Assembly: GCF_000430625.1 (NCBI RefSeq)
Contig: NZ_AUMJ01000004.1
Location: 62,001 to 126,000 of the forward strand
Length of the DNA: 64,000 bases
Direction: 5' to 3'
Source of the DNA: Aneurinibacillus terranovensis DSM 18919
Lineage (GTDB): Bacteria > Bacillota > Bacilli > Aneurinibacillales > Aneurinibacillaceae
The position numbers and the translations under genes were made by a program. The first letter of the stretch is position 1, and each line of letters begins with the position of its first letter. Positions 25,084-57,297 of the stretch are shown piece by piece. The notes below the pieces were generated by a model, which was not told the DNA's origin, searched no databases, and saw only the letters and a list, made by a program, of their open reading frames with translations.

Positions 25084-25190
25084 GCACGCTTTTTTTCCGC
25101 TGCCTAGTGTTACGACAAAGGGGGACGTCTTTCTGCCCGACTGCCTCCCTCTTTAAACTACCCGGATGTTTCGGGCAGTTCCCCCTTTCC
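25084..25190 (+). repeat. Dispersed repeat family B, copy B1
   Basis: This copy folds into a hairpin with an outer stem AAAGGGGGA/TCCCCCTTT (25117-25125 with 25180-25188) and an inner stem CTGCCCGA/TCGGGCAG (25133-25140 with 25171-25178). The loop contains CTACCCGGATGT, equivalent to the CTACCCAGATGT of the copy at 43091. The rest of the 24866-25286 gap holds only the CoiA fragment and, near 25211-25217, a TACAATA that could be a -10 element for rlmN. Confidence 0.7.
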
Positions 25191-25286
25191 TTATCTTTAG
25201 AAATCAATTGTGGTACAATATAGCAGAGTGTCATCCCTGCACCTTTATTCGCAATGCCAACTTTTAAGAAAAACGGTGATAAATGA

Positions 25287-31605: not shown

Positions 31606-31696
31606 AATGGACCGTTATTATTTTTTGCTTTTTTTTCTGTTACTCAGTGCTTCTCTGGAGCTTGGAGGTGCTTTTAGGCCCGACGATGCATCTTGC
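31606..31696 (+). repeat. Dispersed repeat family B, deleted copy B5
   Basis: The left arm runs from AATGGACCG through CAGTGCTTCTCTGGAG to TTTTAGGCCCGA, very like 43100-43172, and then joins directly to CGATGCATCTTGC, which is the right-hand terminus of the copy at 43091-43296. The centre and right arm are missing, so the hairpin cannot form. In the remaining 125 bases before spoVM I see no further feature except the spoVM ribosome-binding site. Confidence 0.65.
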
Positions 31697-41615: not shown

Positions 41616-41620
41616 CAAAA

Positions 41621-41652
41621 TAAAAAAACCGCCCGATAAATTCATCGGACGG
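41621..41652 (-). terminator. Hairpin with T run upstream of the EAL gene
   Basis: CCGCCCGAT and ATCGGACGG form a stem with one mismatch around a six-base loop. On the minus strand it is followed by seven T. No minus-strand gene ends here, so it may end an unannotated transcript or act as an attenuator of the PAS-GGDEF-EAL gene. Confidence 0.5.
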
Positions 41653-41760
41653 GCAAACCTTCCTAAGAAGGCTCGCATAATGGGAGAGGAGAAACCGGAG
41701 GAAGAACTTATGGGGAAACGTAAGTCTTCTCCGCGGTTGTCTACAGCACATCCCGTGCTG
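41629..41760 (+). ncRNA. Chain of stem-loops upstream of rsmD (candidate leader RNA)
   Basis: Four consecutive stem-loops can be drawn: CCGCCCGAT/ATCGGACGG (41629-41652), CCTTC/GAAGG with loop CTAA (41658-41671), a long bulged stem from ACCGGAGGAAG to CTTCTCCGCGGT (41694-41737) and CAGCAC/GTGCTG (41744-41760). A structured leader upstream of ylbH, the rsmD homologue, has been described in Bacillus; I cannot align it from memory. The remaining 119 bases up to rsmD contain no clear signal. Plus-strand orientation is inferred from the downstream gene. Confidence 0.45.
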
Positions 41761-42974: not shown

Positions 42975-43011
42975 AACGGTAAGTCTGCCTTGCTTTGGCA
43001 ATCAAAATTCA

Positions 43012-43063
43012 GCAAAAAAAGTCCGTACCACTTACCTTAGGAGTGATCACGGGCTTTTTTTGC
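43012..43063 (+). terminator. Terminator after coaD
   Basis: GCAAAAAAAGTCCGT and ACGGGCTTTTTTTGC form a 15-base stem with one G-T pair and flanking A/T runs, so it may work in both directions. Confidence 0.85.
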
Positions 43064-43090
43064 TTAGTATTTACATTCCGTGAAACGTTG

Positions 43091-43296
43091 AAGATGCATC
43101 GAAATCCGTTTATTTTTGCTTTTTTTCCGCTGCTCAGTGCTTCTCTGGAGTTTGGGGACGCTTTTAGGCCCGACTGACTCCATAATTGAGCTACCCAGAT
43201 GTTTCGGGACGGTTCCCAATCGGAAGAGAAGCACGGACACTAGATACTTCCCCGCAAGGGAAAACTCCGCAAAAATACATGGATTCGATGCATCTT
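43091..43296. repeat. Dispersed repeat family B, most complete copy B2
   Basis: This 206-base element is a long imperfect palindrome. Its arms pair as AAGATGCATCGAA with TTCGATGCATCTT, TATTTTTGC with GCAAAAATA, GTGCTTCTC with GAGAAGCAC, TTGGGGAC with GTTCCCAA and CCCGA with TCGGG. The tip carries GAGCTACCCAGATGTT. It lies between the convergent coaD and ylbJ genes. Short open frames inside it differ in start and reading frame between copies, so coding is unlikely. Confidence 0.8.
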
Positions 43297-48721: not shown

Positions 48722-48727
48722 TGCGGC

Positions 48728-48764
48728 AAAAAAGGGCGGGATAACAGTTATCCTGCCTTTTTTT
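48728..48764 (+). terminator. Terminator after rpmF
   Basis: AAAAAAGGGCGGGATAAC pairs with GTTATCCTGCCTTTTTTT with one G-T pair, around a single-base gap. It separates rpmF from the fapR operon. Confidence 0.9.
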
Positions 48765-48773
48765 GTCGTTAAG

Positions 48774-48817
48774 GAAAGTATATGTTGCTTTACAGTGTTA
48801 AAGCAACATATACTTTC
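48774..48817. repeat. Perfect 19-base inverted repeat
   Basis: GAAAGTATATGTTGCTTTA (48774-48792) and its exact complement (48799-48817) flank the six-base loop CAGTGT. It begins ten bases after the rpmF terminator and precedes the family B element. Confidence 0.85.
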
Positions 48818-48832
48818 TTCCGTTGGTCACCT

Positions 48833-49027
48833 GAGAAAAACTCACGGGGGTGTGCCGAACGTTGCTTTTTCGATGTGGAGCGTGTGGCCGGAAGGTTGAT
48901 CAGACCGACAATTGTCTCCATCCTTGAGATACCCAGATGTTTTGTCGGTCCGACCTTCCGGTCACTAAGCGGCCGTTTCGCTACCCTGCAGAAAAAGGCC
49001 GAGCGGCAACGCCCGCGAGTTTTTCTC
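48833..49027. repeat. Dispersed repeat family B, copy B4
   Basis: The 195-base element folds end to end: GAGAAAAACTC/GAGTTTTTCTC at the base, CCGGAAGGT/ACCTTCCGG in the middle and GACCGACAA/TTGTCGGTC near the tip, with TTGAGATACCCAGATG in the loop. The stems differ in sequence from copies at 25084 and 43091 but stay paired. The surrounding 542-base gap (48722-49263) holds only repeats, the fapR promoter and its operator. Confidence 0.8.
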
Positions 49028-49087
49028 ATCTTTATTTTTTGCCAAGCAGGAAAGCGGCTGGTGCAGCGAGAAGATAATTTCTTCGGT

Positions 49088-49164
49088 AGATAAGAAAGTA
49101 TAACTTTCTTATCTGCATAAGTGCAACTAAGGCCAGCGCTTGACGCTAGCCAAGTTTTCTTTAG
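49088..49164 (+). repeat. Dispersed repeat family A, copy A4
   Basis: A perfect 12-base hairpin AGATAAGAAAGT/ACTTTCTTATCT with loop ATA is followed by GCATAAGTGCAACTAAGG, a second small hairpin (AGCG/CGCT) and GCTAGCCAAGTTTTCTTTAG. It ends 20 bases before the fapR promoter. Confidence 0.75.
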
Positions 49165-49183
49165 AAGAAGAGTGAAATTACTG

Positions 49184-50862: not shown

Positions 50863-51868
50863 GGAACGTTCAGTGGGTATTCTTGGAACCGGTCGTTATT
50901 TGCCGGAGCGAGTACTAACAAACGCAGATTTGGAAAAAATGGTAGACACCTCGGATGAATGGATCGTTTCCCGCACCGGAATTAGCGAGCGCCATATTGC
51001 ACGCGAAGATCAGGCTTCATCGGATCTGGCATTTGAGGCGGCCTCCCGTGCCCTTGAAACATCCGGCGTGGCAGCTGAAGACCTTGATCTGATTATTATT
51101 ACTACGGTAACTCCGGACATGTTTTTTCCGTCCACAGCCTGCATCGTGCAGGAAAAACTGGGGGCAAAGAAAGCAGCCGCTTTTGATTTGTCCGCGGCCT
51201 GCTCCGGCTTTTTATATGGCGCATCCGTTGCCACGCAGTTTATCAAAAGTGGAATGTACCGTTATGTACTGGTTGTCGGGGTAGAGAGTCTTTCGAAAAT
51301 TACGGATTACACGGATCGCAGCACGTGTGTATTGTTCGGTGATGGCGCGGGTGCCGCTGTTATCGGACCGGTGGAAGATGGAATGGGCTTTCTTTCGTTC
51401 GACCTTGGCGCGGACGGAAGCGGCGCGGAATCGCTCAAGCTGCCAGCCGGTGGTTCACGCAAGCCGCTATCTAAAGTTGAACCGGGCAGTCGTGATAATT
51501 TCCTCTATATGAGCGGTAACGAGGTATTTAAATTTGCTGTACGCGTGATGGGTTCCGCCTGTGACAGAGTGCTGGAGAAAGCGGGTCTTACGAAGGAAGA
51601 TGTCGATTTTCTCGTACCGCACCAGGCCAATATTCGAATTATAGATTCTGCCATGCGGCGCCTCGGTTTGTCCGAAGATAAAGTGGTTGTCAACTTGAAT
51701 CGTTACGGAAATATGTCCTCGGCGTCAATCCCGGTGGCTCTTGACGAAGCGGTGAGCGAAGGGCGGATTAAAGAGGGAGATACGCTTGTACTGGTGGGAT
51801 TCGGCGGCGGCCTCACATGGGGTGCTACCGCAATCAAATGGTCAACAAAAGAGAAAGGACGCGAATAA
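50855..51868 (+). CDS. fabH: Beta-ketoacyl-ACP synthase III
   Basis: FabH starts fatty-acid synthesis by condensing acyl-CoA with malonyl-ACP; in Bacillales it prefers branched primers. The predicted 337-residue protein shows the catalytic Cys in DLSAACSGF, His in PHQANIRI and Asn in [10 protein letters not shown]. The start is open: ATG 50855 overlaps plsX, while GTG 50846 has the better site AGGGAG at six-base spacing and would add three residues. In B. subtilis fabH is elsewhere; here it lies inside the fapR operon. Confidence 0.95.
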
Positions 51869-56994: not shown

Positions 56995-57008
56995 ACGCAC
57001 CTCGATAG

Positions 57009-57045
57009 AAACCCAGTCACCTTTTTTTCGACAGGAGCTGGGTTT
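57009..57045 (+). terminator. Probable terminator after the radical SAM gene
   Basis: AAACCCAG and CTGGGTTT pair around a 21-base loop and are followed by TATTCTCG. The T tract is short, and the loop itself contains seven T. Confidence 0.5.
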
Positions 57046-57062
57046 TATTCTCGCCTTCTGCT

Positions 57063-57297
57063 TTTTTTGCCAGATCGCAATCTGGGTAGCACAAAGAGAG
57101 ACAATCGGGCCTAAAAACATCCCCAAACTTCGGAGAAGCACTGGGTAGCGGGAAAAAAGCAAAAAATAAACATCCGTCCATTCCATTTACCCACCGAGAT
57201 GTTTCGAGACGGTCCCCAAACGTAAGAACAGCACGGACGCCGAAAGCTTCCCCGCAAGGGAAAATTCTGCAAAATAAACGGATTCGATGCATCTCGG
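57063..57297. repeat. Repeat family B, rearranged copy B3
   Basis: Bases 57063-57182 equal the left half of the family B element on the minus strand (GTGCTTCTCCGAAGTTTGGG, TTAGGCCCGA). Bases 57183-57297 equal its right half on the plus strand (GAGATGTTTCGAGACGG, CGGATTCGATGCATCT). The halves are therefore inverted relative to the copy at 43091. It fills most of the 411-base gap between the radical SAM gene and smc. Confidence 0.7.

Follow-up and report, generated by a model that had tools for sequence, protein, structure and literature searches.

Intergenic repeats of about 200-300 bp are dispersed through the genome of Aneurinibacillus terranovensis DSM 18919, and we consider it probable (at roughly 60%) that they are mobile elements that are non-autonomous, have a conserved folded RNA at their core and are copied or inserted via RNA. 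In the predicted fold, a closing stem leads through a purine-rich internal loop to variable inner stems, which have a bulge on one side and are capped by a near-constant tip of 30 nt. Active copies would produce RNA of the sense strand, and the RNA fold would be required for copying; young copies would decay afterwards, and source lineages would retain the fold. With less confidence, we suggest that RNA-based machinery of the group IIC type may insert the element RNA in trans, in the manner of a bacterial SINE. The starting point was a 64,000-nucleotide stretch of the genome (positions 62,001 to 126,000 of contig NZ_AUMJ01000004.1), here called the window, to which all coordinates below refer.

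Copies in the window and their two types

A first-pass annotation had described palindromic copies at 25084, 43091 and 48833 with different stem sequences, and all of them are present in the sequence with the stems that it quoted: CCCGA/TCGGG at 43169-43173/43204-43208 in the 43.1-kb copy, CTGCCCGA/TCGGGCAG at 25133-25140/25171-25178 in the 25.1-kb copy, and GACCGACAA/TTGTCGGTC within a 12-nt arm pair at 48900-48911/48942-48953 in the 48.8-kb copy. It had treated the three as one element. They do belong to one RNA family, but the 48.8-kb copy is a member of a distinct and younger subfamily, Type 2, which differs in sequence outside the tip and core. Type 1, to which the 43.1-kb and 25.1-kb copies belong, is diverged and has two kinds of outer arms, found by eye in every combination. 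Type 2 has a separate 5' hairpin and then a closing stem with a T-run at the end of its 3' arm, and the two types have little sequence in common outside the tip and core.

The 43.1-kb copy (Type 1, + strand) lies between the convergent genes coaD (+) and ylbJ (-), as assigned by NCBIfam. It had been delimited as 43091-43296, but its inverted-repeat outer arms (43085-43103/43284-43302 and 43103-43119/43269-43285) place the borders at approximately 43085 and 43302. The conserved 30-nt tip occupies 43174-43203 (+), with the pattern match at 43178-43203 containing one mismatch. Between coaD and the element, a hairpin with a T-run at 43004-43071 (+; inverted repeat 43004-43026/43049-43071) is the putative coaD terminator. 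A ylbH leader RNA (RF00516, 79.1 bits) is found at 41620-41736 (+), upstream of the gene cluster that contains coaD.

The Type 2 copy lies between rpmF and fapR (NCBIfam) at 48766-49028 (+), as delimited by inverted repeats and BLAST identity. It follows the rpmF terminator, a hairpin with a T-run recognised as an inverted repeat at 48724-48768 (+), which was the target of the insertion. Its 5' hairpin (48774-48817, +) has perfect 19-nt arms, and its closing stem P1 spans 48832-49028 (+), with arms at 48832-48851/49009-49028 and the T-run at the end of the 3' arm. Besides the three copies that had been named, the window contains a rearranged Type 1 copy near 57003-57294, whose halves are oppositely oriented (BLAST pieces 57080-57171 on the - strand and 57185-57294 on the + strand), and a Type 1 fragment at 31622-31684 (+), which is 87% identical over 63 nt. 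One Type 2 copy elsewhere (locus L237, around 1536-1750, +) has its inner segment inverted between the closing-stem arms.

One RNA family with covarying stems

The tip pattern matches three times in the window and never in 100 shuffles of it. Across the whole genome (4.25 Mb in 98 contigs), a scan allowing up to three mismatches gave 78 matches, and the reversed control gave none; the first-pass annotation had named a restriction to the few copies it saw as grounds for giving up its proposal, and the family is far larger than that. The 43.1-kb region folds 6.6 SD below shuffled sequences on the + strand and 5.4 SD below on the - strand.

Two alignments were examined. A1 comprises 26 sequences, all of them Type 2 or like elements, taken from this genome and its relatives, with Type 1 excluded, and A2 contains 11 of the 23 Type 1 copies. 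The layout is the same in both: an outer stem is followed by a purine-rich internal loop and by inner stems that carry a bulge on one side and end in the near-constant tip. In A1, 83.2% of the cells pair, and 93 cells are changed on both sides, compared with 30.9 +/- 5.2 in shuffles (0 of 500 reached this value); every column slide gave far lower numbers. In A2, 87.7% of the cells pair and 38 are double-changed against 17.1 in shuffles, and the number of further pair types showed no excess (249 of 500 shuffles). An ungapped test anchored on the tip, using 127 non-redundant copies with 61 unique flank pairs, showed that at offset 0 each of seven positions had 44-53 of the 61 pairs canonical (72-87%); at offset -1, one position reached 54 of 61, and some copies are displaced by one base. 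The covariance analysis that had been proposed thus bears out the claim that the stems change while pairing is kept and the tip stays almost constant, and with it the suggestion of selection on RNA or DNA structure.

A covariance model built from A1 alone (R1) recovers most of the Type 1 loci that it was run against; it aligns along the entire 43.1-kb copy (43116-43279, E 4e-9) and matches the 25.1-kb copy at 25133-25178 (E 1e-5). Because R1 finds these two copies with no Type 1 sequence in its training, all three copies belong to one RNA family with covarying stems. The 48.8-kb copy, on which R1 was trained, matches at 48859-49017 (E 1.4e-36). A second model, R2, whose training set includes the 43.1-kb copy, matches that copy at 43116-43283 (E 1.1e-23); it also delimits the 25.1-kb copy, between rsmB and rlmN, at 25086-25225 (+; E 1e-12) and matches the rearranged copy at 57003-57162 (-; E 3e-4). 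No Rfam family scored above its gathering threshold, and permissive thresholds gave weak sub-threshold matches over the elements. Two additional pairings were considered by eye and rejected: several copies disrupt a CATC/GATG pseudoknot in the tip, and the tip word ACTGTC does not pair consistently with GACAGT of the internal loop from one subfamily to the next.

Template switching is a known mutational process in quasi-palindromes, and it could copy one arm onto the other and so preserve pairing by mutation alone, with no selection on structure. The near-perfect pairing of many stems is what it would produce. However, it would also erase bulges and loops, and the one-sided bulge, the internal loop and the tip persist across bacterial families; together with an asymmetry between G-T and A-C pairs in one relative, this makes mutation alone an improbable explanation.

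This asymmetry was measured by counting only single transitions from Watson-Crick consensus pairs, after raw G-T and A-C counts had been dropped when column-slide controls exposed a composition bias in them. Among the copies of Aneurinibacillus sp. Ricciae_BoGa-3, there are 61 G-T against 11 A-C changes (in 24 versus 7 columns), and unpaired sites lean in the opposite direction (6 C>T versus 25 G>A). In A. tyrosinisolvens, the counts are 5 versus 4 for copies of the main type and 13 versus 5 for a second type. In the present genome, Type 1 copies show a small excess (118 versus 85, in 44 versus 41 columns), and Type 2 copies show no bias (41 versus 45). The enrichment of G-U pairs in one relative therefore favours RNA of the tip strand over DNA as the folded molecule, but the young copies of this genome do not show it. 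These observations suggest that the fold is kept in the source lineages and that young copies drift. Promoter scans of two copies gave no site.

Mobility, landing sites and distribution

Full-length Type 2 copies occur at no fewer than 40 places in the genome with 94-100% identity (40 of 123 candidates were scored); the 48.8-kb copy is among them and is 94-97% identical to the other 39. At the rpmF site, the hairpin and T-rich run are present without the element in all ten other genomes of the bacterial family, and three Type 2 copies are nested in Type 1 copies (L033, L059 and L071). Type 2 has therefore been mobile recently, and the earlier idea of a non-autonomous palindromic element gains direct signs of movement. 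Compared by eye with other Type 1 copies, the three nested junctions are blunt and have no target duplication; the ends of 17 Type 1 copies likewise have no consistent duplication.

A landing site was scored when a stable hairpin preceded the element and T made up six or more of the 12 bases immediately in front of it. This arrangement was found at 61 of 70 insertion points of Type 2 and like elements in this genome, truncated copies included, and at 22 of 32 in Ricciae_BoGa-3 and A. tyrosinisolvens, compared with 65 of 2000 random control points; a previous count that demanded more T found it at 28 of 46 points, compared with 2.2% in the control. The upstream gene is co-directional for 37 of 42 Type 2 copies and 18 of 23 Type 1 copies, and the left junctions vary, with no fixed short target word; counts of overlap with ORFs were set aside, since spurious ORFs entered them. 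Type 2 thus inserts 3' of terminator-like hairpins with T-tracts and is oriented like the gene upstream. A second small repeat of about 100 nt (GATAAGAAAGTATAACTTTCTTATC...GCCAAGTTTTCTTTA), found in the window at 49081-49165 (+) and, in minus-strand numbering, near 51465, begins with GAAAGTATA as Type 2 does and likewise tends to be preceded by T-tracts; in several loci, Type 2 sits directly behind its 3' end.

Truncated Type 2 copies number about nine without the 3' part and about five without the 5' part. The nine had looked decisive as an argument about the polarity of retrotransposition, but copies truncated at the 5' end exist too, and truncation polarity gives no clear pointer to reverse transcription.

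Outside this genome, a pattern scan of genome contigs returned 57 stretches, all from Ricciae_BoGa-3 and A. tyrosinisolvens. R1 matched 21 of 398 Bacilli genomes, namely every one of the 11 from this bacterial family and 10 of the remaining 387, spread over four further families. Most of the distant matches examined keep the internal-loop words CAGCGGA and AGCGG(A/G/C)CA, and some of them keep the tip. In a phylum-wide draw searched with R2, the only match among 398 genomes was this genome, so that the element family looks confined to a few lineages. Searches of plasmids, phages and viral contigs with single members or the tip pattern gave no match. Among the relatives, twelve Ricciae_BoGa-3 copies (in L107, L109, L111, L112, L127, L129, L137, L140, L141, L146 and, twice, L156) have the same kind of insert of about 75 nt at one point just past the tip, and elements are frequently paired in divergent orientation, with about 150-350 nt between them (L160, L265, L266, L267 and L276).

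Retention of the repeats behind terminators as 3'-end RNAs or insulators useful to the host would account for the strong conservation of the tip, the co-directional upstream genes and the T-run that ends P1 of Type 2. On the contrary, the empty rpmF sites, the burst of near-identical copies, the drift of young copies with no strand bias and the scarcity of matches among the other Bacilli all argue against a cellular role, which we regard as quite unlikely.

Candidate machinery and known repeats

A DNA-level alternative is movement as a MITE, in which the long hairpin, exposed in single-stranded DNA, would be the substrate of a transposase or recombinase and RNA pairing would be a by-product. 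The long inverted repeats, the strong folding on both strands and the unbiased Type 2 copies of this genome are consistent with this, and Y1 transposases are present in 10 of the 11 genomes of the family. For IS200/IS605 elements, a fixed short target word is expected at the left end, and the left junctions here have none. Moreover, none of the 20 Y1 transposase loci carries both element ends (in three of them, some other part of the locus loosely matches one end), and no transposase gene with matching ends was found. Movement as DNA also leaves unexplained the G-T excess in Ricciae_BoGa-3, the conservation of the tip and the internal loop, both unpaired, between bacterial families, and nesting without target duplication. 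We consider it unlikely.

An RNA-based route is suggested by the resident group II intron. This intron, whose reverse transcriptase/maturase was assigned by NCBIfam, stands after a hairpin and T-tract in six of six places in these genomes, as Type 2 does, and its target and size indicate that it is probably of class IIC. Group IIC introns use DNA hairpins such as terminators as targets (PMC3898094). The element has the same kind of target, 3' of a terminator-type hairpin with a T-tract, but it is far shorter, has no reverse transcriptase and has no sequence in common with the resident intron. Because the insertion points match those of the intron, insertion in trans by group II-type machinery may be proposed, and RNA-based insertion of the IIC kind is compatible with where and in which orientation the element lands and with the absence of target duplication. 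The element might then be a counterpart of SINEs, a protein-less structured RNA that uses borrowed group IIC intron machinery to insert itself and spread behind terminators, with the tip and internal loop as its protein handle; this more specific proposal is tentative and, on balance, doubtful. Against IIC-like machinery stand the lack of common sequence, the indecisive truncation polarity and the state of the intron, which in this genome (a draft with gaps) is a 1-kb relic, the other reverse transcriptases belonging to other group II introns. Eight reverse-transcriptase loci contained no element ends apart from separate elements nearby. As for the element being itself an ORF-less group II intron, it has no Rfam intron match, and no domain V was recognised by eye. 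In Ricciae_BoGa-3, the reverse transcriptase frame of a multi-copy group II intron (L242-L247) is split by an insert of about 3 kb with tyrosine recombinase genes.

Among known repeats, the bcr1/BCR repeats of the Bacillus cereus group are, by published description, the closest in size, copy number and structure. Published accounts present them as intergenic, 100-400 bp long and present in tens of copies, with mobile features and a predicted common RNA structure, and also as specific to the B. cereus group, with mobility linked to a TTTAT motif (PMC6542083, PMC2267715); on these descriptions, the last two properties set them apart from the present family. Bacterial MITEs such as NEMIS, RUP and ERIC are short and non-coding, with inverted repeats and folded transcripts, and most of those covered in the text consulted have TA ends and target duplications (PMC2229807). 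The element is likewise short, with terminal inverted repeats and many dispersed copies, but duplications are absent from the nested Type 2 cases and inconsistent in Type 1. REP/BIME sequences with RAYT are, like the present elements, structured intergenic repeats that sometimes stand in inverted pairs, but the REP unit is given as 20-40 bp (PMC3733652), compared with about 200-300 bp here. Our literature search found no description of this element family.

Small mobile repeats of bacteria are generally regarded as DNA MITEs, and for structured examples such as bcr1 the mode of movement is not clear. The present family adds an RNA core that is supported by covariation, lacks an Rfam match and extends across several families of Bacilli, and it adds a subfamily, Type 2, with a precise landing rule in common with group II introns. 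With an RNA core and an intron-like landing rule in the same elements, the RNA-based spread of non-autonomous bacterial repeats becomes a testable proposition.
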